From assembly GCF_000428045.1 (NCBI RefSeq), contig NZ_ATZE01000014.1, positions 15,751 through 79,750 on the forward strand: 64,000 bases of DNA. The letters are read 5' to 3'. A model generated the notes under the pieces. That model made no database searches and had not been told where the DNA came from. It saw only the letters and a program-made list of their open reading frames with translations. Shown here piece after piece: positions 20,753 through 42,122 of the stretch. Every line of letters begins with the position of its first letter. Position 1 is the first letter of the stretch. This DNA is from Sedimenticola selenatireducens DSM 17993 (lineage in GTDB: Bacteria > Pseudomonadota > Gammaproteobacteria > Chromatiales > Chromatiaceae). The translations under genes were made by a program, and so were the position numbers.

Positions 20753-21016
20753 ACGTGATCCTCGCTATGTCCGGTGAAATATAAAAAATGTAGCTCCCCG
20801 ATCCTGGTGCCTTGAGTTATGTGGCTTCAGCGATTTGGACATCAGATTACCCCCGACACTCTGTCTGGAAGATGACGTGACCATTACATCATTGTAATGG
20901 TCGCGTCACGCTGGGGACAGGGGTATTTCGTTACTGTGCCATAAGGTGGTCGGGTAGGACAGATTCGCTGCCGATGACACGAGACAATCGGATATGCGAC
21001 CGGAGGATAATCCGAG
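20753..21016. promoter_or_regulatory. intergenic regulatory region of the copper module
   Basis: No gene is seen between the regulator start and the remnant at 21017. It contains the dyad described separately; the rest is unremarkable. Confidence 0.5.
20879..20902. promoter_or_regulatory. CusR/CopR-type operator dyad
   Basis: Arms gaccattaca (20879-20888) and tgtaatggtc (20893-20902) are perfect reverse complements around a 4-base centre. The core ATTACA-N4-TGTAAT resembles sites of copper-responsive OmpR-type regulators. It lies between the divergent regulator and the Met-rich protein gene and could control both. Confidence 0.6.
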
Positions 21017-21146
21017 ATGAAGCGAAGTTTACAACCTTCCCTACATGCATAGCGGGCGCGACATGGAACAGGAATCCCGGCATATGGAGGGCATGTCGCA
21101 TGATGGGTATGACGTCAATGTCGGCCGACCAGCAAGTAGTATCTGA
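21017..21146 (+). pseudogene. possible cupredoxin-like gene remnant
   Basis: A GGAGGA site at 21002-21007 precedes an ATG (MKRSLQPSLHA) that stops after 11 codons. In another frame from 21045 the text reads MHSGRDMEQESRHMEGMSHD then GYDVNVGRPASSI before a stop. The Met/His-rich segment followed by a G-x-P motif resembles the linker before the cupredoxin domain of secreted copper proteins. If right, the gene has lost its cupredoxin fold by frameshift and deletion. Only a short stretch supports this. Confidence 0.35.
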
Positions 21147-21224
21147 TCCACCCGGGCCATGGCCATGTGATGTTGGCCATCCCTATGAGCGAAGTATATC
21201 AATGGTAACTGGAGGTAATTGACA

Positions 21225-21641
21225 ATGAAATACACAACTCTACTGTTCGGTGCGCTTATGGTGGCCAGCATGGCAACATCGGCCGCACAGCATGTTGGCG
21301 GCATGATGAACATGCAGGACCGCATGCAGAATATGGACCGCATGATGGAACAGGCCGGCAAGACCGACGATCAAGGCAAGCACATGGAACTGATGCAGCA
21401 GCACATGAAGGAGATGCGCGAGACCATGGGTCAGATGAACGAGATGATGGGTGGCCGCCAGCAGATGATGCAGCAGATGGGTGGCGGCATGATGGGCGGT
21501 GGCATGATGGGTAAAGCCGGCGAAGGGGCCGGCAAGGGTATGTCGCCTGACATGATGCAGCAACGCATGGATATGATGCAGATGATGATGGATCAGATGA
21601 TGGAGCACCAGCAGGAATACGAGCGTATGCCACATCGTTGA
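21225..21641 (+). CDS. Met-rich periplasmic protein (copper-binding-like)
   Basis: A 138-residue secreted protein with about 25 percent methionine. A signal peptide (TTLLFGALMVASMATSAA) is followed by repeats such as MNMQDRMQNMDRMM, GGGMMGGGMMG and MDMMQMMMDQMMEHQQE. Met clusters of this type bind Cu(I) or Ag(I) in the periplasm. The ATG at 21225 is chosen because GGAGGT lies 8 bases upstream; the TTG two codons earlier is too close. It is downstream of the operator dyad. Confidence 0.75.
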   Translation: MKYTTLLFGALMVASMATSAAQHVGGMMNMQDRMQNMDRMMEQAGKTDDQGKHMELMQQHMKEMRETMGQMNEMMGGRQQMMQQMGGGMMGGGMMGKAGEGAGKGMSPDMMQQRMDMMQMMMDQMMEHQQEYERMPHR

Positions 21642-21710
21642 GTCGAGTCTGTTGGGATGCGGACGGTATGACTGCCGCCCGTGTTCCAGCACATCGCATG
21701 GGTGAACACC

Positions 21711-21971
21711 ATGAGTGAACCTGACCACGTACAGCACAGCCCCCCGCCGACCGGCAGCTTCTGGCGATCCCGGGCCGGGATAGTGCTGATTGTCTTCACC
21801 GTTATTGCAGGCCTGCTGCTGGCTTACGAACACCGGGCCCATCTTTTGATCGGAAACGGACTGCTGTTGGTATTGCTCGCATTCTGTGTCGGCATACATT
21901 TCTTCATGCACGGGGGGCACGGCGGCCGTGGCGGCGGAGACCAAGGCCCGGATGACGGAGACCGCCCGTGA
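21711..21971 (+). CDS. DUF2933-like small membrane protein
   Basis: An 86-residue protein with two transmembrane segments (GIVLIVFTVIAGLLLAY and LLIGNGLLLVLLAFCVGIHF) and a His/Gly tail (FFMHGGHGGRGGG). DUF2933-type proteins are frequent beside copper-resistance genes. The start is at MSEPDHV; an earlier ATG at 21681 is possible. Stop overlaps the next gene (GTGA). Confidence 0.7.
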   Translation: MSEPDHVQHSPPPTGSFWRSRAGIVLIVFTVIAGLLLAYEHRAHLLIGNGLLLVLLAFCVGIHFFMHGGHGGRGGGDQGPDDGDRP

Positions 21972-22615
21972 CCGCCCCCGCTTATGGTCTTTGGATACTG
22001 GTGATCGTCAACTCGGCTATTTTCATCCTGTTCGCCTTCAGCTTTTTCAAACCGCAGACCGAGCGCGACTGGCGATCCTTCGGCGCCTTTTCGGCGTTTC
22101 TGGTGGCCCTGTTCACCGAGATGTACGGCTATCCGCTGACTATCTATTTCCTCTCCGGCTGGCTGCAGAGCCGCTATCCCGAGGTGGACTGGCTGACGCA
22201 TGACGCCGGACACATCCTGGAGATGCTGTTCGGCTCGAAGGCCAATCCACACTTCGGGCCGTTTCATGTCCTGAGCATGGTTTTCATCGGCGGTGGCTTC
22301 TGGCTGCTGGCCGTGGCCTGGCGAGTGCTCTATGCAGCGCAGAAGACCAACAGGCTGGCGGTGAGCGGGCCTTATGCGTGGATACGGCATCCGCAATATG
22401 TCGCCTTCATCCTGATTATGTTCGGCTTTCTCTTGCAGTGGCCGACGATTCTCACGCTGCTCATGTTCCCGGTGCTGGTCTACATGTACGTGTGCCTGGC
22501 CAAACGCGAGGAGGAGGCAGGTAAGGATGTTGGTGGAGCGTATACCCGCTACGCCGCGGTGACGCCGGCGTTTGTCCCACGTCTGACGCAACTGTTGGCG
22601 GGATTGCGTCAGTAA
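21968..22615 (+). CDS. isoprenylcysteine carboxyl methyltransferase-like membrane protein
   Basis: A 215-residue polytopic membrane protein. The C-terminal part has the conserved signature VSGPYAWIRHPQYVAFILIM and a terminal EEEAGKDVGGAYTRYAAVTP region that matches the ICMT/PEMT-like methyltransferase fold (SAM-binding RHPxY). Bacterial members are often in copper or metal clusters but their substrate is unknown. It begins with GTG overlapping the DUF2933-like gene by four bases. Confidence 0.75.
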   Translation: MTAPAYGLWILVIVNSAIFILFAFSFFKPQTERDWRSFGAFSAFLVALFTEMYGYPLTIYFLSGWLQSRYPEVDWLTHDAGHILEMLFGSKANPHFGPFHVLSMVFIGGGFWLLAVAWRVLYAAQKTNRLAVSGPYAWIRHPQYVAFILIMFGFLLQWPTILTLLMFPVLVYMYVCLAKREEEAGKDVGGAYTRYAAVTPAFVPRLTQLLAGLRQ

Positions 22616-22626
22616 AGGAGGTATGT

Positions 22627-22926
22627 ATGGAAGGTTTACTGTGGTTTCTTATTCTCGGCGGACTGTTCTATTTCATGATGCGTTTCGGTTGCGGGGCGCA
22701 CATGGTGCACGGTCACGGTGGACGTGGCGGGCATGCAGGCCACGGCAACGGCGAAGGCGAGCATAGCGATCCCGTCTGCGGCATGACGGTGGCGGCGGAC
22801 CAGGGTTACGGCAAGATGCACCAGGGCATGCTGTACCGTTTTTGCAGCCGCAACTGCCTGGACAAGTTCGAAGCCGATCCCGGCAAGTACCTGAAACCCA
22901 CCGGCGACACGGGAGGTGCGACATGA
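22627..22926 (+). CDS. membrane-anchored YHS-domain protein
   Basis: A 99-residue protein: N-terminal helix (EGLLWFLILGGLFYFMMRFG), a His/Gly linker, then a YHS domain (SDPVCGMTVAADQGYGKMHQ, then FCSRNCLDKFEADPGKY). The cysteines of VCGM and CSRNC form the metal site of the family, which is found in copper and arsenic resistance and in some P-type ATPases. Strong GGAGGT site. The first of three YHS genes in the window. Confidence 0.85.
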   Translation: MEGLLWFLILGGLFYFMMRFGCGAHMVHGHGGRGGHAGHGNGEGEHSDPVCGMTVAADQGYGKMHQGMLYRFCSRNCLDKFEADPGKYLKPTGDTGGAT

Positions 22927-23213
22927 AACCGGGCATCTCCCTGATCGCGGTGGGTCACGCCTCCAGCCTGTTTCTGGCCATCACCTTTGCCTTGTGTGTG
23001 GCGTTTGATCTGCTGTTTCCTGCAAATGCCATGTACCAGACCTGGCAGGGACTGCTGCCGGGTTTCGAGTGGATCAGCTGGCAGAGCTTTTTCCTGGGCC
23101 TGATCGAAAGCTACGGCTATGGCTGGTATTTCACCCTGGTCTGGGTGCCTATTTACAACCTGTTTGCCACGCGCAGTGCTGCCGGGAAACGCCTGCGCCA
23201 GGAGAGAGGATAG
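22923..23213 (+). CDS. DUF5676-like small membrane protein
   Basis: A 96-residue protein with two transmembrane helices (SLFLAITFALCVAFDLLF and SFFLGLIESYGYGWYFTLVW). The conserved Gly-Trp-Tyr pattern and length fit the DUF5676 family. The start at 22923 overlaps the YHS gene stop by four bases. Function unknown; the neighbourhood is copper-related. Confidence 0.7.
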   Translation: MKPGISLIAVGHASSLFLAITFALCVAFDLLFPANAMYQTWQGLLPGFEWISWQSFFLGLIESYGYGWYFTLVWVPIYNLFATRSAAGKRLRQERG

Positions 23214-23215
23214 TT

Positions 23216-24346
23216 GTGACGGAGAACATCCCTGTCGAGATCGCCGGCGCCGGGCCGGCCGGGTTGGCGGCTGCCATTACCCTGGCGCGTGCGGGACGCC
23301 CGGTCATTGTGCATGAGGCACAGCCCGAAGTGGGATGCCGCTTCAAGTGCGACCTGCAGGGACTGGAGAACTGGACCACCCGGCAGGATGCCTTGGTGGT
23401 TTTGCAGGAACTGGGGATCACCACCGACTTCAAGCGACTTCCCTGTCACCATGGTACCGCCTTCGACGCCTGGGGCCAGGCATACGGCATCGACAGCCAC
23501 GAGCCGTTGTTTTACATGGTGGAACGCGGTCACGGCCCGGACACGCTGGATACCGCGTTGTTTCACCAGGCACTTGCGCTGGGTGCAGAGGTGCGCTTCA
23601 ACAGCCGGGTGCAGCACGTGCAGGGACCGGCCATCTTCGACACCGGCCCGAAGGCGGCCGATGCCATCGCCGTTGGATACCACTTCGACACCCGCATGCC
23701 GGATGGTTTCTGGGCGATCTGTGACGATACCCTTGCACCGCAGGGCTATGCCTATTTGCTGGTCATGGGCGGCAAAGGGACGGTGAAGAGCTGCATGTTC
23801 ACCGGCTTCAAGCAAGAGGCGCACTATGTACAGCGCACTGTCGAGGCATTCAAACACCTGGTCGGACTGGAGATGATTGATCCCCGTCCGCACGGCGGGG
23901 TGGGGAATTTCCGCATCCCGCTCACCGCGCGCTCGGGGGCGCATGCGGTGGTGGGTGAACAGGCCGGCTTCCAGGACACCCTGTGGGGATTCGGGATGCG
24001 ATCGGCCGTCATCTCGGGGGTGCTGGCTGCCCGCAGTCTGCTGGAAGGGAGCGACTACGACAGGCTATGGCAGCGGATGCTGGGCGAACTGATGGCAACG
24101 GCGGTGTTGAACCGCGCCCTGTACGGTCTGTTGGGTAACCGTGGTTATCGTTGGCTGCTACGCCACCGGGAAAACCACTCGGACGCACGCGAGCTATTGC
24201 ACCGCTACTACCACCCGTCGTACGTCAAGCGCTTGCTCGCGCCGCTGGCGCGGCGGCGTTTCCAGAGCCAACGCAAGGACGAGAGTTGCAACCACGTCGA
24301 TTGCAGTTGTGTCTGGTGCCGCCATGGCCGCGAATTGCATACATAA
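23216..24346 (+). CDS. FAD-dependent oxidoreductase
   Basis: A 376-residue flavoprotein of the geranylgeranyl-reductase-like class. The dinucleotide-binding motif VEIAGAGPAGLAAAITLARA opens the protein at residue 7, and a second FAD motif (GDxxGF-like) is around VGEQAGFQDTLWGFGMRSA. The C-terminus ends with cysteines (CNHVDCSCVWCRHGRELHT). Start is GTG at 23216 after GGAGAGAGGA, 3 bases behind the previous stop, so the genes are coupled. Substrate unknown. Confidence 0.78.
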   Translation: MTENIPVEIAGAGPAGLAAAITLARAGRPVIVHEAQPEVGCRFKCDLQGLENWTTRQDALVVLQELGITTDFKRLPCHHGTAFDAWGQAYGIDSHEPLFYMVERGHGPDTLDTALFHQALALGAEVRFNSRVQHVQGPAIFDTGPKAADAIAVGYHFDTRMPDGFWAICDDTLAPQGYAYLLVMGGKGTVKSCMFTGFKQEAHYVQRTVEAFKHLVGLEMIDPRPHGGVGNFRIPLTARSGAHAVVGEQAGFQDTLWGFGMRSAVISGVLAARSLLEGSDYDRLWQRMLGELMATAVLNRALYGLLGNRGYRWLLRHRENHSDARELLHRYYHPSYVKRLLAPLARRRFQSQRKDESCNHVDCSCVWCRHGRELHT

Positions 24347-24426
24347 TGTCGTGACCAAGAGCGGACTAAAAGCAGACTTGCTGATCAATACACACAGGCC
24401 CGCAATGTGCGGGTAAGGAGGGCATC

Positions 24427-26115
24427 ATGAGCCGCGAGTTCATCCACTCGGAGCGTATCGCCTACTTCACCATGGAGATTGCGCTGCGGGCGGACATTCC
24501 CACCTACAGCGGGGGACTGGGTGTGCTCGCCGGCGACACCGTGCGCTCGGCTGCCGATCTGGAGCTGCCGCTGGTCACTGTGAGTCTTGCCAGCCGCGCC
24601 GGTTATTTTCGCCAGCGCATCGATGAGGCCGGCCACCAGTGTGAGGCGCCCGATCCCTGGGATCCGGCCATCCTGGCTCGGCCGCTGCAGGCGCGGGTTG
24701 CCGTACCCATCGAGGGACGGGATGTCTGGGTGGGTGGTTGGCTCTATGTCCTGGAAGGCCACATGGGTGGCCGCCAGCCGGTGATCATGCTGGACACAGA
24801 TCTGGTGGAGAATGCTCAGGCGGATCGCGAGCTGACCCACTATTTGTACGGTGGCGACGAGACCTACCGGCTGAAGCAGGAGATCGTGCTTGGAATCGGC
24901 GGCGCACGCATGCTCCACGCCCTGGGCTTCAAAGTGCGCCAATATCACATGAACGAAGGCCATTCCGCGCTCCTATGCCTGGAGTTGTTGAACCGTTATG
25001 CCTACCCGAGCGAGGAGTTGCGCCCGGAAGATATTCCCTATGACATCCCGCGTGTGCGCGAGCGGTGCAATTTCACCACCCACACCCCTGTGGAAGCCGG
25101 CCATGACAAGTTTCCCTATGGGCTGGTGCAGCGGGTGCTGGGGGATTTTGTGGACCTGGCGACATTACAGCGACTGGCAGGCGGGGACCAGCTGAACATG
25201 ACCCGGCTGGCGCTCAACAGCAGCGAGTATGTCAATGGTGTCGCCAAACGCCATGCGGAAACCTCGCGGCGCCTGTTTCCCGGCTACCGGGTACGGGCCG
25301 TCACCAACGGCGTGCATCCCTTCGCCTGGACGCATGCGGCGTTCGCCAGGCTTTACGACGAGCATCTGCAGGGCTGGTGCCATGAACCGGAACTGCTGGT
25401 GCGGGCCGATTGCTGCATTAGCGACGATGCCATCCGGGAGGCACATCTGCAGGCCAAACAGGCACTGGTCGAGCAGGTGCAAACGGTGACCGGCACCAGC
25501 CTCGATCCCGGCGTGTTTACCTTGGGATTCGCGCGGCGCATGACCGCCTACAAACGCCCGGATCTCCTGTTTTCCGACCTGGATCGCCTCAGGGCAATCG
25601 CCCACCAGCGGCCGTTTCAGATCCTGCTGGCGGGTAAGGCACATCCCCATGACCAGAGCGGCAAGCGCGCCATCGAGGCGATTCACGGGTACATCCGCGA
25701 ACTGGCCGGTACCGTGCCGGTGGTGTTCCTGCCCAACTATGACATGGCAATCGCCGCGGCTATGGTGTCCGGTGTCGATGTCTGGCTCAACACGCCCCTG
25801 CCACCCTGGGAGGCCTCAGGCACCAGCGGCATGAAGGCGGCCTTCAATGGCGTGCCCAACTTGAGCGTGCTGGATGGCTGGTGGTCCGAGGGCCGGATCG
25901 AGGGGATTACCGGGTGGGGTATCGGGGATGGCGGGCCGGGCGAGAACGATGCGGTCGCGCTCTATGACAAGCTCGAGCAGGTGGTGTTGCCCCTGTACTA
26001 CGAAAACCGTTCGGGTTGGATTGCGGTGATGAAGGGCGCCATTGCCAAGAACGCCTCGTTTTTCAACAGCCACCGCATGATCCGTCGCTACACCAGCGAC
26101 GCCTATATGCGCTGA
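24427..26115 (+). CDS. glgP: alpha-glucan (glycogen) phosphorylase, short form
   Basis: A 562-residue enzyme that releases glucose-1-phosphate from glycogen with pyridoxal phosphate. Motifs are FTMEIALRADIPTYSGGLG at the start, QYHMNEGHSALLCLELL, the substrate region TNGVHPFAWTH, and the PLP-lysine segment EASGTSGMKAAFNGVPNL near residue 465. It is the shorter GT35 form without the usual N-terminal extension. AAGGAGG site is 6 bases before ATG. Confidence 0.9.
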   Translation: MSREFIHSERIAYFTMEIALRADIPTYSGGLGVLAGDTVRSAADLELPLVTVSLASRAGYFRQRIDEAGHQCEAPDPWDPAILARPLQARVAVPIEGRDVWVGGWLYVLEGHMGGRQPVIMLDTDLVENAQADRELTHYLYGGDETYRLKQEIVLGIGGARMLHALGFKVRQYHMNEGHSALLCLELLNRYAYPSEELRPEDIPYDIPRVRERCNFTTHTPVEAGHDKFPYGLVQRVLGDFVDLATLQRLAGGDQLNMTRLALNSSEYVNGVAKRHAETSRRLFPGYRVRAVTNGVHPFAWTHAAFARLYDEHLQGWCHEPELLVRADCCISDDAIREAHLQAKQALVEQVQTVTGTSLDPGVFTLGFARRMTAYKRPDLLFSDLDRLRAIAHQRPFQILLAGKAHPHDQSGKRAIEAIHGYIRELAGTVPVVFLPNYDMAIAAAMVSGVDVWLNTPLPPWEASGTSGMKAAFNGVPNLSVLDGWWSEGRIEGITGWGIGDGGPGENDAVALYDKLEQVVLPLYYENRSGWIAVMKGAIAKNASFFNSHRMIRRYTSDAYMR

Positions 26116-26135
26116 CCCCAGAGGAGGATTTGATT

Positions 26136-26351
26136 ATGCCCGGGCATGAGCAACAAGCAATGTCAATGGAACTCTCCGTATCGCTGCGTGCCCGGCAGGC
26201 ACCGGCGCGAGGCAATGAAGCGGCATCAGGCACAACAGGTACGGTCCCGCAGCGCTGCTCACCAGACCATCGGGATGGAGCCGACGCCGGCGGGGGAGCA
26301 ATCATCGTTATTCCATCAATACACCGAACCAGAAGGAGCACAATCCTATGA
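26136..26351 (+). CDS. small uncertain open frame
   Basis: A 71-residue frame with a good AGAGGAGGA site, starting MPGHEQQAMSMELSVSLRAR and overlapping the next start (ATGA). It has no recognisable domain and a composition unlike its neighbours, so it may be a leftover of a deleted gene rather than a functional one. Confidence 0.3.
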   Translation: MPGHEQQAMSMELSVSLRARQAPARGNEAASGTTGTVPQRCSPDHRDGADAGGGAIIVIPSIHRTRRSTIL

Positions 26352-26554
26352 ACAAACAGACCCTAAACAAGATCGCCAAGGCCCACAAGCTTGATCCGAG
26401 CAAGTTCGACAAGGTCGGTTTGATTCGCAATATTCAGCGCCGAGAGGGAAATTTTGATTGCTTCGCGAAGGCCTATGACGGCTATTGCGATCAGTCGGCG
26501 TGCCTGTGGCGGGACGACTGTCTGCCACTGGCGGCGGCTGGAGACGCGGGCTGA
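26348..26554 (+). CDS. small SAP-like/Cys-rich protein
   Basis: A 68-residue protein with an N-terminal helical region (KIAKAHKLDPSKFDKVGLIR) resembling a SAP-type DNA-binding helix pair, then a conserved Cys pattern (EGNFDCFAKAYDGYCDQSAC, LWRDDCL). Proteins of this kind are annotated only as small conserved genes. Role unknown. Confidence 0.6.
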   Translation: MNKQTLNKIAKAHKLDPSKFDKVGLIRNIQRREGNFDCFAKAYDGYCDQSACLWRDDCLPLAAAGDAG

Positions 26555-26574
26555 AGCACGGAATCGAACGGGCC

Positions 26575-27876
26575 ATGGACTTCTCTCTTGTTCCAGCCTC
26601 CAGCACGACCCGCGCCTGGCAGATCGTGCAACGCGTGTTCCGCGATTACCAGGGCAGCTTGGCGGTGCGCCTGTGGGACGGGGGTACGTTGAGCTTCGGG
26701 GCAGGGGTGCCTGACGTCACCCTGATTGTTCGTGAACCCCGCCTGTTGCGTGAGCTGATTCTGTTCCGTGATCCGTTACGATTGGCCGAGGCGTACTTTC
26801 AGGGTGGGTTGGACGTCGAGGGTGACCTCTACACGGCCCTGGAAATGAAGGACCGGCTTCAGACCCTGAACCTGTCCGCCTTTGAGAAGGCGGGCTTTCT
26901 GTGTGCAGCGCTGTTCCTCGGTGGTGCATCCGCTTCCCTCAATGCGGCATCGGCACGGCGTAACTTCCTCGCCTTGTGGCCGTGGCGCGTTCATTCGAAA
27001 GGTGGGAGCCGCCAGGCCATCGCCTTCCACTACGACGTCTCCAACGCCTTCTACCGGCTGTGGCTCGACGCGCAGATGGTCTACTCCTGTGCTTATTTCG
27101 AGACCCCGGATGACAGTCTGGACCAGGCACAGCGCAACAAGCTGGAGTATATCTGTCGCAAGCTGCGACTCAAGCCCGGTGACCGCCTGCTTGATATTGG
27201 CTGCGGCTGGGGTGCGCTGATCTGCTGGGCGGCGAAACATTACGGGGTCCAGGCGCATGGCATTACCCTGAGCCAAAATCAGTATGACCATGCTCGAAAA
27301 AAAATTGGGAATGAGAATTTGCAGGACAGGGTCACCGTGGAACTCAGGGACTATCGTGAGCTGCAAGGGGAAGCCCACTACGACAAGATCGTCAGTGTCG
27401 GCATGTTCGAGCACGTCGGTCTCAGAAACCTGCCGTGCTATTTCGATATCGCCCGGAGTCTGTTGAAACCGGGTGGACTGTTCCTCAATCACGGTATCAC
27501 CCAGGACCGGGAAGGCTGGGGCGGGACCGTGGGCACGCGCTTCATCAACCGGTATGTATTCCCGGACGGCGAACTGGATACGGTCGGCAACGTGCAACGC
27601 GCCATGGAGCAGACCGGCTTCGAGATCCTCGATGTGGAAGGGCTGCGGCGGCATTACGCCCTGACGCTGCGGCACTGGGTCGGCCGGCTCGAGAGGGGCA
27701 GGGCCGAGGCACTGCGGCAGGTCCCGCAGTCCATCTATCGTATTTGGCGCCTGTACATGGCGGCCTGTGCGCTGCAGTTCGAGCAGGGTGATATCGGCGT
27801 GTACCAGATCCTTGCTGCCAATAGGGACGGCGGGCCGGCGCGGGTGCCGCTGACGCGGCGGGATCTGTATGTCTGA
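26575..27876 (+). CDS. cfa: cyclopropane-fatty-acyl-phospholipid synthase
   Basis: A 433-residue SAM-dependent enzyme that methylenates unsaturated phospholipid acyl chains. The SAM site is LLDIGCGWGALICWAAKHYG near residue 205; the substrate-specific motifs HYDVSNAFYRLWLD, MVYSCAYF and SVGMFEHVG (active-site Glu) are intact, and the C-terminal RHWVGRLERGRAEAL follows. The start is ambiguous; ATG at 26575 begins right before the SLVPASS region and avoids overlap with the SAP-like gene. Confidence 0.9.
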   Translation: MDFSLVPASSTTRAWQIVQRVFRDYQGSLAVRLWDGGTLSFGAGVPDVTLIVREPRLLRELILFRDPLRLAEAYFQGGLDVEGDLYTALEMKDRLQTLNLSAFEKAGFLCAALFLGGASASLNAASARRNFLALWPWRVHSKGGSRQAIAFHYDVSNAFYRLWLDAQMVYSCAYFETPDDSLDQAQRNKLEYICRKLRLKPGDRLLDIGCGWGALICWAAKHYGVQAHGITLSQNQYDHARKKIGNENLQDRVTVELRDYRELQGEAHYDKIVSVGMFEHVGLRNLPCYFDIARSLLKPGGLFLNHGITQDREGWGGTVGTRFINRYVFPDGELDTVGNVQRAMEQTGFEILDVEGLRRHYALTLRHWVGRLERGRAEALRQVPQSIYRIWRLYMAACALQFEQGDIGVYQILAANRDGGPARVPLTRRDLYV

Positions 27877-27898
27877 CGGGTCGCAAGAGGAATAGCCA

Positions 27899-28228
27899 GT
27901 GACATTTATGATTTTCAGCTTGAACGGCCATGAGCGCATGCCATTGGAGAAGGTATTCAAAGAGCGGATGGTCGAAAAAACCGAAGCGATTGCAATGGAA
28001 CGCCCCATCGAGGAATTGGGGCACCAGGGCACATCGGAACAGCATGACCGGCAATATTCAGTCGCGCAGGCTTACCACGCGGTCGAACAGTTGCCGACAA
28101 ACTCTTCAGTGCTGTTGGCTGAACAGGTGATGACGGCGCCGGTAGTGACCTCTACGCCCGAGATGAGGATCTCGGATGCGTTGCAGAACGTGATGACATT
28201 TTTTTCTCTACCCCCCCAGGAGACAGCG
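27899..28228 (+). pseudogene. truncated CBS-domain gene fused in frame to YHS
   Basis: A GTG start with a GAGG site opens a frame encoding an N-terminus (FMIFSLNGHERMPLEKVFKE) and the first half of a CBS domain (EQVMTAPVVTSTPEMRISDA). Instead of the rest of the CBS pair, the frame runs on into the YHS protein gene. The missing CBS half and second CBS domain suggest a deletion joined the two genes. Confidence 0.55.
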
Positions 28229-28426
28229 ATGAAACACCAGGACAGTGAAAGAACCTTCAAGGACCCAGTTTGCGGCATGGAGGTCAGCCGCCTGAGTGCG
28301 GTCGAGGCGTACGACTATCAGGGCAAGACCTATTACTTCTGTTCAGGGCACTGCCGAGAGGTGTTCGAGGCGGAGCCGGAGAAGCACCTTCGGCATCACC
28401 GCCAGCATGGGGTGAAGCGGAAGTAA
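28229..28426 (+). CDS. YHS-domain protein
   Basis: A 65-residue YHS protein starting at MKHQDSERTFKDPVCGMEV with a GGAG site directly upstream. The metal-binding pattern KDPVCGMEV and CSGHCREVFEAEPEKH is intact. It can be read either alone or as the C-terminal part of the fusion with the CBS remnant. Confidence 0.7.
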   Translation: MKHQDSERTFKDPVCGMEVSRLSAVEAYDYQGKTYYFCSGHCREVFEAEPEKHLRHHRQHGVKRK

Positions 28427-28480: not shown

Positions 28481-28714
28481 ATGGCTCAACGTCGTTTCTA
28501 CAATAGTCTGTTGAGCGAGAGGCTGCGCTACACGGCATTTCTGTTGCTAATGGGCATCGGCTTCATCTTTCGTTTTGCTGCCGTGTCACCTTGGCTCAAA
28601 GTCATGCCGCTGCCGCTGCCGCTGCCATTTGTGGCGGTCTCTGCCGATATCCTGGCCTGGTTTCTCACCCAGTGGAATCCATTTTATGCCTACACGGAGG
28701 AGAACCCCATATGA
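28481..28714 (+). CDS. small membrane protein
   Basis: A 77-residue protein with two hydrophobic segments (YTAFLLLMGIGFIFRFAAV and PLPLPFVAVSADILAWFL). It overlaps the beta-CASP gene by four bases. Not recognised. Confidence 0.55.
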   Translation: MAQRRFYNSLLSERLRYTAFLLLMGIGFIFRFAAVSPWLKVMPLPLPLPFVAVSADILAWFLTQWNPFYAYTEENPI

Positions 28715-33779: not shown

Positions 33780-33818
33780 TCGCTCATAGCAGCTTTATTA
33801 AGATACAGGGTATTTGCA

Positions 33819-33840: not shown

Positions 33841-34243
33841 TCGTTGAACATCGGCAGACGCGTCTGCCGCTTGGGAATCATTTGGGGCTCAAACTTGCCG
33901 TTACGGTCCCGGGGCACATCCAGGGTCAACGCGCCCTGTTCTCCTTTGAGAGTTTTGGCGCTATAGCCATAACAGCTGTTGCCGGTGTTGTGGCCTGCCG
34001 TGGCGTGCCGGGGATAGCCAAGATGGTCGGTCATCTCACCTTCGAGCATGGGCTCAAAGGCATTTTGCTGGAGCTGCAGGGTCAGTTCGGCAAGCTGTTC
34101 TGGCGTCTTGACCGCCTTGACCAGTTCTTCCAGCTGGGACGAGAGAGAGTCTTGTTTTTTGGTTCTTCTGCGCATGCGTCTTTTTCTTTATTATCAAGGG
34201 CATGGGACTTTGAGCAGTTACACAATTTAATTTACAGTCTCTC
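33841..34243 (-). mobile_element. IS256-family element fragment
   Basis: The reverse strand encodes the first ~110 residues of an IS256-type transposase (EPMLEGEMTDHLGYPRHATA, TGNSCYGYSAKTLKGEQGAL, LDVPRDRNGKFEPQMIPKRQ), starting at 34175. The frame loses homology at 33841, where the 22-bp repeat starts, so the DDE domain is missing. Upstream at about 34205-34243 lies a sequence typical of an IS256 end (gactgtaaattaaattgtgt on the reverse strand). Dead element. Confidence 0.8.
34205..34243. repeat. IS256 terminal inverted repeat (5' end)
   Basis: The reverse strand reads gagactgtaaattaaattgt then gtaactgctcaaagtcc, resembling IS256-family ends. It marks the outer boundary of the fragment; no matching second end was found near 35900. 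Confidence 0.5.
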
Positions 34244-34326
34244 AGCGAGTGAAGCCTGGCTGTCCGGCTCCGATCGTTCACGCATTTCCCTAAAACCAGT
34301 ATATTTTCCTCCAGGAGTGAGTCCAC

Positions 34327-35667
34327 ATGGATGAGCATTCAGCACACGAAGCCGACATCAAGAAAGGCAGCATCTCCCTTCTCGGAGGGATTGCAATGGG
34401 CACCGGCGTCATGATCGGCGCGGGCATCTTTGCGCTCACCGGTCAGATAGCGGAGCTCGCAGGACCGCTCTTTCCGCTTTCCTTCGTCGCCGGCGCTCTG
34501 GTGACGGCGCTCGCCGCCTACAGCTATATCAAAATGTCCAACGCTTGGCCGTCCTCAGGCGGGATCGCCATGATCCTGCAAAAGGCTTACGGTCCTGGTG
34601 TCGTAGCGGCCTCGGCTTCGCTGCTTATGGCGCTCTCGATGGTGATCAACGAAAGCCTGGTCGCGCGTACATTCGCGACCTATGTCCTGCGGCCCTTCGA
34701 TCTTGAGAAAAATGGTCTCCTGATTTCAGCGCTCGCGCTCGCTCTCATCGTCTTTGCCTTTTTCGTGAACGCGGCCGGCAACCGATCGGTCAGCGGCTTC
34801 TCGCTTTTCATGTCCGCAATCAAGATCGGCGGCATCGCGATTTTCGCCATCGCCGCGATTTGGGCGAGCGGGTTGTCCTCGGGAGCGTTCGCAGAACCTA
34901 TCTCTTTGTCGACGGCCGACGCGCTGCTTGCTTCGGTGGCGTTCTCCATTCTTGCCTTCAAGGGCTTCACGACCATCACCAATAGCGGCGGCGAAATTGT
35001 CGACCCGCATCGCAATGTCGGGAGGACTATCCTCTATTCTATCGCCATTTGCATCGTGATCTACTTGCTCGTCGCGATCGCCGTCGGCTCCAGTCTCAAT
35101 ATCTCCGAAATCGTCGAGGCGCGCGACACATCGCTGGCGGCAGCAGCGCGCCCTGCCCTTGGCGACATTGGCTTTTATTTCACCATTGCGATCGCGATTT
35201 CGGCAACGACCTCGGGTGTTATCGCGAGCGTCTTCGCCGTTTCTCGAATGCTCACGATGCTGACCGAAATGAAGATGATCCCGCACAGCCATTTCGGCAT
35301 GAAAGGCGGCATCCGCAGCCATATGCTGCTCTATACGGTAGTTATTGCCGGCACGCTGGCAGTCCTGTTCGATCTTTCGCGTATCGCATCGCTCGGCGCC
35401 TTCTTCTATCTGGTGATGGACATGCTGGTGCATTGGGGCGTCTTCCACGGTCTGCGTGAGGAAATTGGTGCGCGGGCCTCGGTGCTCCTCGCCGCTCTCG
35501 CCGCGGACGCCGTCGTGCTCGCCGCATTCACCGCGGCGAAATTGCAGAGCGATCCTGCCGTTGTCACTTACGCAGTGATCGGTATCAGTGTCGTTTTTAT
35601 GCTAGAACGGGTCTTTCTCTCCCGCAGGCGCTCATCGAGCTCCTCCTCCGATGAGCATACCCATTGA
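34327..35667 (+). CDS. APC-family amino acid permease
   Basis: A 446-residue membrane protein with about 12 helices. The start (GGIAMGTGVMIGAGIFALTG) is the substrate-binding first helix of the amino acid-polyamine-organocation superfamily. GGIAMILQKAYGPGV and AFKGFTTITNSGGEIVDPHR are also typical. The substrate is unknown. It has a CAGGAG site. Its codon use (many TCG, GCG, ATC, AAT codons) differs from its neighbours, which suggests transfer from another lineage. It lies between the 22-bp repeats. Confidence 0.85.
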   Translation: MDEHSAHEADIKKGSISLLGGIAMGTGVMIGAGIFALTGQIAELAGPLFPLSFVAGALVTALAAYSYIKMSNAWPSSGGIAMILQKAYGPGVVAASASLLMALSMVINESLVARTFATYVLRPFDLEKNGLLISALALALIVFAFFVNAAGNRSVSGFSLFMSAIKIGGIAIFAIAAIWASGLSSGAFAEPISLSTADALLASVAFSILAFKGFTTITNSGGEIVDPHRNVGRTILYSIAICIVIYLLVAIAVGSSLNISEIVEARDTSLAAAARPALGDIGFYFTIAIAISATTSGVIASVFAVSRMLTMLTEMKMIPHSHFGMKGGIRSHMLLYTVVIAGTLAVLFDLSRIASLGAFFYLVMDMLVHWGVFHGLREEIGARASVLLAALAADAVVLAAFTAAKLQSDPAVVTYAVIGISVVFMLERVFLSRRRSSSSSSDEHTH

Positions 35668-35963
35668 TGTTAGCGCTTCTCTCCGCGCACCATCGCCCTC
35701 ATCAATGTTTTGCATCGGCTGTAATAAAACGCTCACTCCCGCGTTTTTCTTTTTCTGGCGGCTTATCCGGCAGCACGTTCCCACGGCTTCCGGCGGCGCG
35801 AAAATGGGGGCGAGTTTGCTTGGGTCGATAAAGAGCGCATTGTAAATCGCAGCGCGACCGAGCTGGTCAGCTTGGTGGTGCGCCGGCACGACAGTTTCAC
35901 TGCTGATTGAGAGTCAACTATCTATCACCTGTTAATGGGTTAAATGCAAAAAAGGGTTACATG
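35668..35963. other. intergenic stretch with an unassigned open frame
   Basis: Between the permease and the Kef-like gene no clear gene is seen. One forward frame ending at 35910 reads GGEFAWVDKERIVNRSATEL and VSLVVRRHDSFTAD, protein-like but unrecognised and without a start. It could be the tail of a lost gene. Confidence 0.35.
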
Positions 35964-35985
35964 ATGGAGCATCCAGTACTCACCA
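35964..35985 (+). repeat. 22-bp direct repeat, right copy
   Basis: Identical to 33819-33840. Here it is the genuine start of the Kef-like gene. The two copies bracket the IS256 fragment and the permease (2.1 kb), which is too long to be an IS256 target duplication (8-9 bp). Confidence 0.8.
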
Positions 35986-36935
35986 GTGTCATCGGTCTTC
36001 TAGCTGCCTCCGTGGCGTTGCTGGCCCTGTTCGAGCGCATGGGGCTGCCGATTTTACTGGCTTATTTGCTGGTCGGGATAGTTCTGGGCCCCGCTGGCCT
36101 TTCCTGGATACCTCATACCGAGGATCTGCATTTCCTCGCCGAGTTCGGGGTGGTGCTGCTGCTTTTCACCATCGGCCTGGAGTTCTCTGTGGGCAAGCTC
36201 TGGACCTTGCGCAGACATGTGTTCGGACTCGGTGGCGCCCAAGTGGTGGTCACTGCTGCGCTCGGTGCTCTGTTGGCCTGGGGAGTGGGGCTCGCTCCGG
36301 GCGCGGCCTTCGTGGTGGGTGGGGCGCTGGCGCTATCCTCGACGGCGGTGGTGTCACGCGAGCTCAGTCGCAGGGATGAACTCGGACAGCCGCACGGTCG
36401 TCTTTCGGTGGCGGTGTTGATCTTTCAAGACCTGGCCGTTGTCCCTTTCCTGATCCTGATCCCGGTACTGGCCGACGACTCGGGGAATGGTGTTTGGGGC
36501 GCGATCGGATGGGCCCTGTTGACCGGTGCCATTGTCATCGCGCTGATGATGGCGGCGGGCCGGTGGATGTTACGGCCGATATTTCGGTGGATTGCCGAAC
36601 GCGGTTCAGAAGAGCTGTTCACGTTGACGGCGCTGTTGTTTGCACTCGCAGCGTCATGGTTGACTGAGTTCGCGGGATTGTCATTGGCCCTGGGAGCTTT
36701 TCTCGCCGGCGTGATGCTCAGCGAGACCGAGTACAGGCATCGTCTCAGTGAAGAGATCCGACCGTTTCGTGATGTGTTGCTGGGATTCTTTTTTGTAGTG
36801 ATAGGCATGATGCTGGACCTGGCCGCGGTGGGAGCGCTGTTGCCGTGGGTGTTGCTGGCGTTGGCGATTGAACGGCACCACATGGCAAATAACCAATGGA
36901 GGACACAACCATGGGACCTAGCAGTGAAAAAGTAA
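35964..36935 (+). pseudogene. truncated Kef/CPA2-type potassium/proton antiporter
   Basis: The 323-residue frame encodes the antiporter core: VGIVLGPAGLSWI, FGVVLLLFTIGLEFSVGKLW, AALALSSTAVVSRELSRRDE-type and FQDLAVVPFLILIPVL. Normal members exceed 550 residues and carry an RCK/TrkA-N domain. Here helices end at LLPWVLLALAIER and the frame continues into unrelated sequence (HHMANNQWRT) that overlaps the next gene's ribosome binding site. The loss of the C-terminus points to a deletion. It may still make a membrane protein but is probably non-functional. Confidence 0.7.
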
Positions 36936-37420
36936 AAGACCCGGTGTGCCACATGTGGGTGGCGCCGGAGCAGTTCGCGATTAGCTATCAGGGCATGGAC
37001 TTCGCGTTCTGCTCGCAGCAGTGCAAGGACCGCTTCCTGGCCAATCCACACCTGTATATCGGTGTGCCAGGCGCACCGGCGCCGAAGCAGGAAGGGCAGG
37101 AGGTGTTCAAGCGCCGCCGGCTGCGCCTGGAAACACCCTTGTCGGACGTCCACGCGCAGCAGGTCACCGAGCAACTCCTCGCGATGATGGGGGTGTACTC
37201 GGTAGACATTGATGCGGGCGAACTGACCATCACCTACGATCTCCTGCAGGCGACCGCCGAGCAGATCGAGGCGACCCTGCAGCAGGCGGGCGCGTGTCTG
37301 GGCGAGGGCTGGAGTGAGAGGCTGCGCCGCGCCTTCGTCCACTACCTGGAAGAGAACGAGGTGGCGAACCGGGAGGTACAACCCGGTCCTCACGGGCACG
37401 GCGGGCATCACCGTGACTGA
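36911..37420 (+). CDS. YHS plus HMA-like domain protein
   Basis: A 169-residue protein with an N-terminal YHS domain (VKDPVCHMWVAPEQFAISYQ, then FCSQQCKDRFLANPHLY) followed by a ferredoxin-like fold resembling heavy-metal-associated domains (RLRLETPLSDVHAQQVTEQL, AMMGVYSVDIDAGELTITYD) but without CxxC. The tail is Gly/His-rich (GPHGHGGHHRD). GGAGG lies 8 bases before ATG. The third YHS gene of the window; its start overlaps the truncated Kef-like frame. Confidence 0.7.
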   Translation: MGPSSEKVKDPVCHMWVAPEQFAISYQGMDFAFCSQQCKDRFLANPHLYIGVPGAPAPKQEGQEVFKRRRLRLETPLSDVHAQQVTEQLLAMMGVYSVDIDAGELTITYDLLQATAEQIEATLQQAGACLGEGWSERLRRAFVHYLEENEVANREVQPGPHGHGGHHRD

Positions 37421-37468
37421 AACATGTGCTGTGACTGGCGTGTCCTATGGGGCTTGGGTCCCAGGATC

Positions 37469-38653
37469 ATGACGCTAAAGCAAGAGAATCTTGCACAAGG
37501 CTGCGCCGTCGAACACGCCCCCGTTTCGACATCGCAAATAATGCCTGCGATGAGCACCCCGCTGGCATCCATTTTTGGCAGCGGGTTTCTGGTGATTGTT
37601 CCCGTGCTGGCCAGCAGTGTGGGGCCGTACTCGGTGTGGGCGATGATGGCGGTCGCCTTTGTCGCGTTCCATATTGGCGCTATTGTGCGCCACAATATTC
37701 TCTGTGCCGAGCCGGTGCTGGCAGCGGGCAATCAACCTGTGACACTCATGCTCGAACGGTTGTCGGACGTGGCGTTGGTTGCGGCTTACGTGGTGTCCGT
37801 ATGCCTCTATATTCATATCCTGAGCGCCTTCGTGCTCGGGGCTTTCGAGCTGGATTCGGGTTTCAACAAGAGTCTGCTCACCACGTTAGTGATTGGAGTG
37901 ATAACCGTTGTCGGGATGACGGGTGGTTTGCAACTGTTGGAGCGCCTGGAACGCTGGGCCCTGTACCTGACCATCCTGATTCTGGCACTGCTGCTGGGCG
38001 GGTTCGCCGTTCATGACGTCAACAGCTTTCTGGACACGGGGCGGTTCGCGCTGCCGAATCTGCCACAACGTTCCGGCTGGGAAATGGTGACCATGGTGGC
38101 CGGCACCCTGATTGTCGTACAGGGTTTCGAAACCCCGCGTTATCTCGGCAGCCGTTTCGACACCTGGACCCGGATCCGGGCCTCGCGCTGGTCGCAGTAT
38201 GTGTCTCTCGCGATCTACGTCGCCTTCGTGGCTCTGGCACTTCCTATCGTGCCGGTGCTGAGCGGGCACTATGCCGACAACAGCCTGATCCGGCTGGCCG
38301 CGGCAGTATCGGTGCTGCTATCGATGCCGCTGATCCTGGCCGCCGGCCTGTCGCAGTTCTCCGCCGCGGTGGCGGATACCCTGGCAGCCGCGGCGAATCT
38401 GGAGGAGGTCACACGCCGGCGTATGACTCAGCGCTGGGGCTATCTGTTGGTCGGCGCCGCCGCCATGGTGCTGGCCTGGACGGGTTCGACCTTTACGGTG
38501 ATCGCACTGGCGTCGCGCGCCTTCGCCCTGTACTACCTGTTGCAGTGCCTGGTGGCCTTATCAGTGTGCAACAACCACCGCGAACGGGCGCGCTTCTTCC
38601 TGGTGGCGTCGGCGTTGGCTTTTGTCCTGTTGTTTGCCGTGCCGGTCGGTTGA
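37469..38653 (+). CDS. polytopic membrane transporter, APC-like
   Basis: A 394-residue protein with about 11 helices and no obvious signature. Segments such as SIFGSGFLVIVPVLASSVGP, GGLQLLERLERWALYLTILI and the APC-like discontinuous helices suggest an amino-acid or ion transporter of the APC superfamily. The start at MTLKQEN is chosen after an AGGA; an ATG at 37424 gives 15 more residues and lies 4 bases after the YHS gene. Substrate unknown. Confidence 0.6.
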   Translation: MTLKQENLAQGCAVEHAPVSTSQIMPAMSTPLASIFGSGFLVIVPVLASSVGPYSVWAMMAVAFVAFHIGAIVRHNILCAEPVLAAGNQPVTLMLERLSDVALVAAYVVSVCLYIHILSAFVLGAFELDSGFNKSLLTTLVIGVITVVGMTGGLQLLERLERWALYLTILILALLLGGFAVHDVNSFLDTGRFALPNLPQRSGWEMVTMVAGTLIVVQGFETPRYLGSRFDTWTRIRASRWSQYVSLAIYVAFVALALPIVPVLSGHYADNSLIRLAAAVSVLLSMPLILAAGLSQFSAAVADTLAAAANLEEVTRRRMTQRWGYLLVGAAAMVLAWTGSTFTVIALASRAFALYYLLQCLVALSVCNNHRERARFFLVASALAFVLLFAVPVG

Positions 38654-38710
38654 TCGGCGGCGACTCGCAGCACAATGGAGTCTGATGAACATGTTACATG
38701 ACACAACCAT

Positions 38711-40831
38711 ATGACTGACACTGCCAACCCCGGGAATGCTTTCGTGATACAGCCCGGCGCGCCATTGCCGCTGGGCGCCTGTGAACGCTGCGGCGGGGTG
38801 AACTTCGCGCTGTTCAGCCGCCATGCGGAGCAGGTGACGCTGCTGTTGTTCGATGCACCGACAGACGAGGCGCCCTGCCGAACGTTGGACCTGCAGCCGA
38901 TGCTACATCGCACCGGCGACATCTGGCATGCCTGGATCGAGGGCCTCGGCCAGGGCACGATCTATGCGTGGCGCGTGGATGGCCCGTACCAGCCGGAGCA
39001 GGGGCATCGCTTCAATTACCACAAGGTGCTAATCGATCCTTACGCCGCTGCGCTGGTGGGGACGGATTGTTGGGATTTCGCCTGCGCCTGCGGATATGAG
39101 TCGGCGTCGGAGGTGGACGACCGGTCTTTTTCCAAAGAAGACAACACCCGCCGGCAGGCCAAATGCCTGGTTTGCGACGGTGCCTTCGACCGGCGGGGCG
39201 GTCAGCGGCCCCGTCACGCGTGGACGGATACCGTCATCTACGAAACCCATGTGCGCGGCTTCACCGTACACCCGTCCGCCGGCGTGGCGCATCCCGGGAC
39301 CTATCTGGGGCTCATCGAACAGATCCCGTATTTGCAGGAACTGGGCATCACCGCCGTCGAGCTGCTACCGGTGCAGGAGTTCTTTGAGGGCGAACTGGTG
39401 CGCGACAACCCGCGGAGCGGCGAACGCCTGCGCAACTACTGGGGCTACAGCACGGTGGCCTTCTTTGCCCCCAAGGAAAGTTATTCCAGTCGCCGTGAGC
39501 CGGGCTGTCAATTGACCGAGTTCAAGACCATGGTCAGGGCGCTGCATCGCGCCGGGATCGAGGTCATCCTCGATATCGTGTTCAATCATACGGCGGAGGG
39601 CAACGAAATCGGTCCCACATTAAACTTTCGCGGCCTGGACAATCGTATTTATTACTTGCTCGAAGAGGACCGGCATTTTTACAAGAACTACTCCGGCACT
39701 GGCAACACGCTCAACTGCAATCATCCGGTTGTACGCGACTTCATTCTCGATTGCCTGCGCCATTGGGTCATCGATATGCAGGTGGGCGGTTTTCGATTCG
39801 ATCTGGCTTCGGTGCTGGGCCGCGACGTGCACGGCAATCTCCTGGCCAATCCGCCCTTGCTGGAACGCATCGCCGAGGACCCGGTGCTGCGTGACGTCAA
39901 GCTCATTGCCGAGGCCTGGGATGCCGGTGGCGCTTACCAGGTGGGCAGTTTCCCGGGACAGCGCTGGTCCGAGTGGAACGGGCGGTTCCGCGATGACGTG
40001 CGCCGCTTCTGGCGCGGCGACGCCGGCATGACCGGCGCCCTGGCCAGCCGCCTGTGCGACAGCGCGGATATCTATCAGTACGGCGGCAAACAGCCGGTCA
40101 GCAGTATCAATTTTGTGACCTGTCACGACGGTTTCACCCTGAATGATCTGGTCAGCTACCGGGGCAAGCACAACGAGAGCAATGGTGACAACAATGCCGA
40201 CGGCGATAACCATAACCACAGCGACAACTATGGGATTGAGGGCACCACCGACGATCCGGCCATCGAAGCAGTGCGCCAGCGCCAGATCAAAAATTTCATC
40301 GCCACCTTATTGGTTTCCCGTGGCGTGCCCATGTTGCTCGGCGGGGACGAGTTTCGTCGTAGCCAGGACGGCAACAACAATGCCTATTGCCAGGACAATG
40401 AAACGTCCTGGTATGACTGGGACCTGTTGCAGCGACATCAGGAGATCTTTCGCTTCACCCGCGAAATGATTGCCTTGCGCAAGCGCCATGAAGCGCTGCG
40501 TCGGGAGACCTTTTTTACAAGCGCTGACATTCGCTGGTTCAGCCCAGATGGCGACACGCCTCAGTGGAATAGGGGCGACCGCAGACTCGGTTGTGTTATC
40601 GATGCATCGGACCGCGCAGCGTCGTTACTGTGTCTGCTGTTCAATGCGGGACCGGATCGGGCCGAGTTCGTGTTGCCGCCGCCCCTCAGCGACTGTCCAT
40701 GGCGGGTTGCCGTGGATACCGCGCGGGCGTCCCCGCAGGATATCAGCCCCCCGGGTGGAGAGCCGTTGCTGCAGGAGCCAGGATGGTATCGTATGGAAAG
40801 CCGTTCCCTGGTGATCCTGGTCAGTGGGTAG
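38711..40831 (+). CDS. glgX: glycogen debranching enzyme
   Basis: A 706-residue GH13 enzyme that removes branches from phosphorylase-trimmed glycogen. An N-terminal CBM48 region (FSRHAEQVTLLLFDAP) precedes the barrel: DIVFNHTAEGN, catalytic Asp in VGGFRFDLASVLGRD, Glu in LIAEAWDAGGAYQVG and Asp in NFVTCHDGFTLNDLV. It complements GlgP 13 kb upstream in the same island. Confidence 0.92.
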   Translation: MTDTANPGNAFVIQPGAPLPLGACERCGGVNFALFSRHAEQVTLLLFDAPTDEAPCRTLDLQPMLHRTGDIWHAWIEGLGQGTIYAWRVDGPYQPEQGHRFNYHKVLIDPYAAALVGTDCWDFACACGYESASEVDDRSFSKEDNTRRQAKCLVCDGAFDRRGGQRPRHAWTDTVIYETHVRGFTVHPSAGVAHPGTYLGLIEQIPYLQELGITAVELLPVQEFFEGELVRDNPRSGERLRNYWGYSTVAFFAPKESYSSRREPGCQLTEFKTMVRALHRAGIEVILDIVFNHTAEGNEIGPTLNFRGLDNRIYYLLEEDRHFYKNYSGTGNTLNCNHPVVRDFILDCLRHWVIDMQVGGFRFDLASVLGRDVHGNLLANPPLLERIAEDPVLRDVKLIAEAWDAGGAYQVGSFPGQRWSEWNGRFRDDVRRFWRGDAGMTGALASRLCDSADIYQYGGKQPVSSINFVTCHDGFTLNDLVSYRGKHNESNGDNNADGDNHNHSDNYGIEGTTDDPAIEAVRQRQIKNFIATLLVSRGVPMLLGGDEFRRSQDGNNNAYCQDNETSWYDWDLLQRHQEIFRFTREMIALRKRHEALRRETFFTSADIRWFSPDGDTPQWNRGDRRLGCVIDASDRAASLLCLLFNAGPDRAEFVLPPPLSDCPWRVAVDTARASPQDISPPGGEPLLQEPGWYRMESRSLVILVSG

Positions 40832-41592
40832 ATGTGTTCGGTGATGAGCGACTTGGATGTGGGTTGTTTTGTCCCGGATAAAGAGGGCGGGTATGTGGTG
40901 ATGTTTGAAAAAGACAAAGACAGTGATCGAAACCCGGGCGCACTTGGTTGCCAGCCCGGCGAGTGGGGTGATTGTGTACCTGCGTTGGCGCCGTCTCACC
41001 ACGGCTTTGAGCTGTTCACGGAAGGCGATGACCTGTATCGGGTAATGCTGACTGCTATTGCCAGCACAAGGTGGTCGGTCGAGCTGGATAGTTATATCTT
41101 CGCGGACGACGAAGTCGGTCGGTGGTTCGCCGAGGCGCTCGCCGATCGGGCGCGCGCGGGCAATTGTTCGATGCCTTCTGGCGCGGGCAGCGGCGTTGGT
41201 TACCGGATAGCGCTTCGAGCGACAGTATCCTGGTACACAACCATACCCGGACATGCCGCCATCGGCTGCGCTGTATCTATGCGGATGCCTTCGCCGCCGG
41301 CGTCCGCATCTATGCGTATCTGCCACAGGTGTTGCACGCCAAGACGTTCGCAGTGGATGGCGAATGGGCGATGCTCGGCACCGCCAATCTGGATTCTCTC
41401 AGCCTGTTTGTTAACTATGAGCTCAACCTGGTGACGCGGGACCCTGAATTGTCAGCGAAGCTGGAGCAACAGTTTTTGGGAGATATGGATGATTCAGTGC
41501 GCATTCAGCCTGCGCGCTGGGGAAAGACGCGATTGGCTGGCGCGTTTGTCCGAGGCAGTGGCTTGGATGGCGCGGCGCTGGCTATAGGGTAG
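40832..41592 (+). pseudogene. phospholipase D-family (cardiolipin synthase-like) remnant
   Basis: The first frame gives FELFTEGDDLYRVMLTAIAS and VELDSYIFADDEVGRWFAEA, the N-terminus of PLD-type synthases, then breaks near 41160. A second frame from about 41290 carries a single HKD motif, HAKTFAVDGEWAMLGTANLD, and the C-terminal YELNLVTRDPELSAKLEQ. The first HKD motif and about 100 residues between are missing. Begins directly at the glgX stop. Confidence 0.7.
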
Positions 41593-42122
41593 GTGGTGAC
41601 TGGAGTGTTCAGATGAAGGCAACCGGTCGGCGAAGGATCTTGGTATTGTGATCGGGTGCCGCTCTGGATGACGACGGGGTTGTTGTTGACAGGCGGTCTG
41701 GTCGGCTTGATGGTCAGGCAAGGTGCGCGGTGTACAGTTGGACATCAAGAACCTGCCGAAAACTATCCGATATTTGACAGGGTTTTCATTCCAACAGTTA
41801 TGTTGATCAGTATCAATGAAGGTGTCGCTACTAAGCGTAGATTGTATCGCTTCCGATGGACGCGCAGTACGTTTATACCGTACCCTTCCCTGGTCCTGGT
41901 TCCTATATGGCAGCCTTCACTAGTGACGCTGCCATGGGTCAACCCGATACGAATGACACAGGGGTGCGTTTCCATGGGTCACGGTAATGAAAGTGGGGTC
42001 CGGGCAGACCATGAGGCATCGTTTTATGCCTCAGTGATCATGCACACGGTACACTGGCATTCCGTCATTATCACTTTAAAGAGTTACAGGCTTCCGACTT
42101 ATCTTGTAAAAAGGCGAGGAAT
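41593..42122. other. stretch without a clear gene
   Basis: No supported gene is seen. A short hydrophobic frame near 41656 (WMTTGLLLTGGLVGLMVRQG) may be debris. A perfect 8-bp hairpin (tgaggcat / atgcctca, 42012-42033) lies before lemA. Confidence 0.4.

Follow-up and report, generated by a model that had tools for sequence, protein, structure and literature searches.

Genes Reduced by Large Deletions among Intact Genes in an Island of Sedimenticola selenatireducens DSM 17993

A stretch of 64,000 nucleotides from Sedimenticola selenatireducens DSM 17993 (hereafter the window; G000:C5:15751-79750, from a genome of 4.59 Mb in 37 contigs) harbors, at 20753-41600, an island in which genes cut down by large deletions are interspersed with intact ones. 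The reading favored here, at a probability of roughly 0.8, is that the island was acquired horizontally and that its dispensable genes have been removed piecemeal by large deletions, with the other genes kept under purifying selection. An earlier note on the sequence of the window had described an island shrinking by deletions from gene end to gene end; the shrinkage is corroborated by relatives in which the genes are open or intact and follow the same order, and by the different deletions that relatives carry in the same genes, but the gene-end wording was overstated, as break points fall anywhere from ~2% (ATPase in G451) to 76% (kef) along the gene.

Remnants, Relatives, and Recurrent Deletion

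Genes were read from open frames and Pfam matches over 20.7-42.2 kb (Table 1), and six islands were compared in detail: those of the window; of G006, a congener with a sister island (84-86% nucleotide identity across the longest blocks); of G451, a genome of another family (two contigs, listed as 100% complete) that aligns with the right half of the island; of L022, a 9.2-kb contig from a metagenome-assembled genome (MAG) of an uncultured member of the Ectothiorhodospiraceae, aligned from cfa to xfp at 79-89% nucleotide identity; and of G253 and G536. The oxidoreductase, glgP, cfa, MBL, xfp, APC permease, YHS-HMA, and glgX genes are intact, and between them lie frames that match one family end only. 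As the earlier note had held, glgP, cfa, xfp, and glgX, along with the MBL and permease genes, are full-length or nearly so relative to homologues. Seven of the eight genes that it had listed as terminal fragments (CBS, ackA, nhaA, P-type ATPase, MFS, kef, and pld) proved to be remnants of large deletions, and the small membrane gene and, doubtfully, a YHS-SLOG scrap can be added to them. The eighth, a cupredoxin, was not recovered: a frame at 24.3 kb was rejected because it shadows the C-terminus of the oxidoreductase, a part conserved between the window and G006, L037, G034, and G055, and a candidate of our own choosing at 21.0-21.1 kb matched nothing in Pfam at E 0.05 and had no convincing relative among the compared loci; no coordinates had been given for the gene, and another place could have been meant.

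Fuller counterparts of these remnants are found in relatives. At CBS, at YHS-MBL, and within ackA, L022 contains blocks without counterpart in the window; its CBS gene (602-1234) is a frame of 211 codons with two CBS stretches, relative to which a net ~383 bp are missing at the CBS/YHS joint of the window, where ~33 unassigned bases stand as filler. In G451, which is 80-94% identical to the window from MFS through the gene that precedes glgX, with 71% identity at nhaA, the MFS gene is an open frame of 426 codons, the 5' part of which is missing from the window; kef is a frame of ~395 codons, from which ~277 bp are deleted at the kef/YHS-HMA joint of the window, at an imperfect 11-bp repeat (36854-36864); and the homologue of the small gene (without a Pfam match) is an open frame of 255 codons, relative to which the 420-bp deletion of the window lies at an imperfect 11-12-bp repeat (28551-28562). 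G253 carries a full-length ATPase, an open full-length ackA frame, a full-length match to xfp, and an nhaA frame that is open, though its record is partly masked with N; a long nhaA frame, likewise open, is present in G519. The fuller genes, open or intact (MFS of G451 being recognized by its open frame), stand in matching order for CBS in L022, for kef and MFS in G451, and for the ATPase (after nhaA) and ackA (before xfp) in G253, so that the comparison with relatives proposed in the earlier note came out in favor of deletion for CBS, kef, MFS, and ATPase; the match in order does not extend to pld, the reference for which (L098) is a homologue and not syntenic. Most or much of nhaA, ATPase, and MFS is gone from the window, but there is no one syntenic reference against which to measure the loss. 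The ackA gene of the window lacks 368 bp relative to G006, where it is already shortened, and ~870 bp relative to L022.

The relatives, moreover, bear deletions of their own. In G006, ackA has another internal deletion that leaves ~24 codons of the N-terminus and a longer piece of the C-terminus; xfp is reduced in one place to approximately its first 95 and last 17 codons, fused (2103 bp missing relative to G536), and in another, after the ackA remnant, to its first codons only; glgP survives as a C-terminal remnant; and SAP is likewise lesioned. In L022, ackA lacks 153 bp in frame relative to G253, and the YHS gene, intact in the window, retains ~20 codons. In G451, ~15 first codons of the ATPase remain (2436 bp missing relative to G253), and nhaA keeps only its C-terminal part in an open frame (261 codons), its start having been replaced, as read, by unrelated sequence. 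Because relatives have fuller genes in matching order and have themselves suffered deletions with different break points, recurrent deletion across related islands is likely, to judge from the compared sequences, and an assembly artefact unlikely.

Origin and Selection

The island is a mosaic, with different parts matching different genomes; its permease is 94% identical at the nucleotide level to that of G451, the genome of another family. When eight congeners were searched with two stretches of the island, large matching blocks were found in G006 only, and G001 and G002 gave short blocks at 65-83% for the first stretch and mere short scraps for the second. Being nearer to distant genomes than to most congeners, the island appears by these comparisons to have been acquired horizontally. 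No tRNA lies within it (the single tRNA of the window is a tRNA-Leu at 46026), and its flanks hold one truncated transposase frame, judged by eye. The matches listed give no sign of a plasmid copy of the island: in the best 20 of 62 plasmid records the match is confined to xfp, glgX, or the permease, and in the best 40 of 102 to the permease, with coverage below 80% of the query in both cases. Among the titles listed in a literature search, none dealt with a named island that combines phosphoketolase and YHS genes. A long DNA query matched 133 of the 210 genomes of the order, a result dominated by xfp and limited to at most two scored candidates per genome, by which island relatives are undercounted; a query with 32760-33800 matched six of the 369 genomes of the class, the own genome among them.

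The ratio of nonsynonymous to synonymous substitution rates (dN/dS) of the intact genes lies at 0.06-0.23 (xfp 0.06, MBL 0.12, permease 0.16). That of the remnants is 0.17 for kef, 0.20 for MFS, 0.24 for ATPase, 0.26 for CBS, 0.33 for the small gene, 0.19-0.43 for the ackA pieces, and 0.60 for nhaA, values that are compatible with recent deletion and are no proof of lost use. Ten remnant frames (980 codons) contain no internal stop codons, a count that is partly circular, as the frame ends were chosen by the analyst.

Deletion Joints

Thirteen joints, six in the window and seven in relatives, were assessed by the overlap of their flank alignments; the null, which is rough, consisted of break points placed at random in the same references, with divergence simulated. 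Selection of the joints was guided chiefly by flanks that adjoin in the shorter genome. Ten were used out of 15 candidates, and J3, J7, and J9, drawn from two-reference or gapped comparisons, were added manually. Omitted were a third G536 joint with a gapped right side (alignments overlapping by 12, ~6 bp exact by eye), two window inserts seen from G451, and two short joints (G055-C95/G253, 69 bp; L037/G519, 81 bp). An overlap of 11-12 bp was found at three of the 13 joints (small gene of the window, p 0.003; kef/YHS of the window, p 0.013; SAP/cfa of G006, p 0.006) and one of 4-5 bp at two more (one G536 joint, p 0.055; ackA of L022, p 0.036). The Fisher sum over all 13, in which J3 and J7, lacking a clean register, were counted against microhomology, gave p 0.0017, as compared with p 0.0025 for an earlier set of 11 joints. 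The 11-12-bp repeats are imperfect, their copies agreeing at 9/11, 8/11, and 10/12 positions in the longer reference by hand count. Recombination at short repeats, which the earlier note had suggested along with a check for microhomology at each joint, is supported for 3/13 joints (2/6 in the window) and not for most; short repeats would account for some joints, not all.

Several points weigh against the favored reading or parts of it. At eight of the 13 joints the overlap is at most 1 bp, absent, or of unclear register, which argues against short repeats as a general cause. The references are ~5-35% diverged at the joints, so that true microhomology of 1-3 bp is invisible. Three joints (G006 pgm and two in G536) may reflect either gain or loss. 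The left breaks of the ackA deletions in the window and G006 lie no more than ~10 bp apart, and the two deletions may share a first step. A difference from G451 at 37.46 kb (described below) may be a gain there or a loss of two genes in the window. Finally, the remnants are not clearly relaxed, standing only partly above the intact genes in dN/dS, which may reflect deletion of recent date or a use that the stubs retain.

Alternative Explanations

Metagenome or mixed-culture variants of the island, collapsed or chimerically joined in assembly, had been offered as an explanation in the earlier note, and the 37 contigs and estimated contamination of 2.5% would suit such an artefact; it is nonetheless improbable, as independent genomes, including the two-contig G451, carry like lesions in the same genes at other break points, the own genome has no second near-identical version of the regions searched (20753-22000, 21600-27900, 32700-38700, and 33780-35960), and nearby intact genes have normal dN/dS. 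Even less credible is the production of the joints by Ku/LigD nonhomologous end joining after double-strand breaks, a form of the end joining that had also been proposed: most joints are blunt, nearly blunt, or without clear register, and CBS/YHS holds filler, yet the Ku profile PF02735 had no match in the own genome, in a search that covered Ku only and in which the control was positive in one of 14 genomes (B. subtilis), and Ku-type end joining is disfavored for this reason. Among known systems, the joining of bacterial ends without Ku, with or without short homology (alternative end joining), comes close to the Ku-independent route of the favored reading, although the enzymes involved here are presumed only. 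Adjacent deletions by insertion sequence (IS) elements could have made most joints, given the Mutator-type transposase remnant, the second insert inside the island, and the 22-bp direct repeat of the kef start beside that remnant; we nevertheless regard this as unlikely, for there is no transposase match at the other joints (where element ends were not searched for), and a search of this genome at E 1e-4 gave no second copy of the transposase insert.

About equally unlikely is that the stubs are retained for translational coupling to the next gene, such that only coupling-preserving deletions survive. The stub frame extends to the next start in six of eight cases (an arbitrary point inside cfa having served as the next start for G006), but the other frames do much the same, all three reaching it in 3/8 and two of three in 3/8, with no clear excess over chance, and the stub frame falls short at L022 YHS and at ATPase/MFS of the window. 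The proximity of joints to the next ribosome binding site, part of the earlier description, is real at CBS/YHS and small gene/MBL (no more than ~11 bp from the next start) and loosely so at kef/YHS-HMA (32-42 bp), and is not seen at ackA, ATPase/MFS, or pld. Under the favored reading of piecemeal deletion in an acquired island, the deletions would arise by Ku-independent illegitimate recombination, some joints perhaps by replication slippage or annealing at short repeats and others by blunt or near-blunt joining, and those that survive would be the ones that leave the following gene and its ribosome binding site untouched. The tidy look could then be had without a special mechanism, because the neighbors are under purifying selection and deletions that spare them persist.

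Relation to Known Systems and Significance

Repeat-associated deletion and deletion-biased gene loss are already known, and the phenomenon is of a known kind. In its treatment of deletions, a study of Haloquadratum walsbyi reports events between direct repeats of 4-20 bp, the copies of which differ slightly in several instances, and truncated genes (PMC3119063). The island resembles those deletions in its truncated genes and in the terminal remnants left behind (of elements, in the cases described there) but differs in that that work concerns two near-identical strains of one archaeon, whereas here diverged Gammaproteobacteria are compared and the repeats, all imperfect, stand at a minority of joints (PMC3119063). 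Judged by the pattern of such deletions, in which a direct repeat of 4-20 bp lies at both ends and one copy remains at the joint, the three joints with 11-12 bp conform imperfectly, two show 4-5 bp, and the other eight do not conform or have no clear register. Among single-lesion pseudogenes of Salmonella, short deletions made up 141 of 346 lesions, point mutations 133 of 346, and insertions 17% (Kuo and Ochman 2010, PMC2916853). The removal of unneeded genes by deletion is common to that sample and the island, but the island lesions found each take a large part of the gene; the island set was recognized by its remnants, whereas the Salmonella set, as defined there, required flanking conserved genes (PMC2916853).

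Redundancy is a plausible reason for loss because ackA and nhaA, the only families searched for elsewhere in the genome, have one and two intact copies there, respectively. More speculatively, and with considerable doubt, one island family may be shared across the Gammaproteobacteria and may have been trimmed repeatedly, in independent lineages, at the same genes (ackA, nhaA, and P-type ATPase); large deletions would have done nearly all of the trimming and point mutation hardly any, as though hosts discard modules they already own. If so, the island would serve as a natural experiment on which genes do not outlast the transfer to a new host, and on the joining chemistry available to a host that lacks Ku. 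Islands at several stages of erosion can show how acquired modules are pruned, including the order in which genes disappear, the value of redundancy as a predictor of loss, and the route by which bacteria without Ku join ends in nature, and the set comprising the window, G006, G451, G253, L022, and G536 places deleted and fuller versions of the same genes side by side.

Features of the Island and Minor Observations

Table 1. Features of the island, in coordinates of the window.
Feature	Coordinates	Strand	State and remarks
Island	20753-41600	+	Mostly co-directional; deletion remnants interspersed with intact genes
FAD/NAD(P) oxidoreductase	23219-24346	+	Intact; conserved C-terminus accounts for the alternative frame at 24.3 kb
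glgP-type alpha-glucan phosphorylase	24427-26115	+	Full-length relative to homologues
cfa (cyclopropane synthase)	26611-27876	+	Conserved part; true start slightly upstream; 86% nucleotide identity to G006
CBS-domain gene	27908-28186	+	N-terminal remnant, ~93 codons
YHS-domain gene	28229-28426	+	Intact
Small membrane gene	28481-28714	+	Remnant; 420-bp in-frame deletion; C-terminus also gone just before MBL
MBL/beta-CASP hydrolase	28711-30066	+	Intact; dN/dS 0.12 relative to L022
ackA	30106-30318	+	Remnant; ~23 N-terminal and 44 C-terminal codons; frames shifted at ~30176-30184
xfp (phosphoketolase)	30333-32753	+	Intact; dN/dS 0.06 relative to L022
YHS-SLOG gene	32815-32928	+	Doubtful C-terminal scrap; by-eye resemblance to the gene following xfp in L022
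nhaA	32955-33173	+	C-terminal remnant, ~64-70 codons; PF06965 positions 333-371 of 374
P-type cation ATPase	33290-33403	+	N-terminal remnant, ~37 codons; PF00690; joined to MFS
MFS transporter	33402-33779	+	C-terminal remnant, 125 codons; 80% nucleotide identity to G451
532-bp insert with Mutator-type transposase N-terminal remnant	33780-34311	-	PF00872; not in G451
APC permease	34327-35667	+	Intact; 94% nucleotide identity to G451
227-bp insert	35723-35949		Between permease and kef; not in G451
kef-type exchanger	35961-36864	+	N-terminal 301 codons retained
YHS-HMA gene	36896-37420	+	Intact
glgX-type debranching enzyme	38711-40831	+	Intact
pld/cardiolipin-synthase-like gene	40943-41592	+	~200 internal residues deleted relative to L098; frame change near 41161

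The best local match of the YHS-SLOG scrap (E 0.01) is to another locus, and the L022 contig stops inside its YHS-SLOG gene. For the 227-bp insert, the own genome yielded no further copy and the compared loci no convincing match. The transposase remnant, which we take to be IS256-like, has beside it a copy of the first kef codons, 2145 bp upstream of the real start; copy and original form an exact 22-bp direct repeat (33819-33840 and 35964-35985), of which the kef start in G451 holds a diverged version.

In the left half of the island, the CBS stub and the YHS gene share one open frame (27908-28426), which would allow a fusion protein. Farther right, opposite 37427-37463 of the window, YHS-HMA and the gene after it are separated in G451 by two additional frames (24072-25755), one of which looks by eye like an alpha/beta-hydrolase. 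Outside the island, a frame at 45343-45714, near the tRNA-Leu, resembles by eye part of an IS3-type transposase, and ~3.5 kb at 13543-17060 (cytochrome c maturation-like genes, by reading) have no counterpart in contig C14 of G006, although both flanks align; G006 may have lost them or the window gained them. Among the relatives, G055, a single MAG, has pieces of the same island type on several contigs (C83, C95, C80, and C100), two xfp genes among them.

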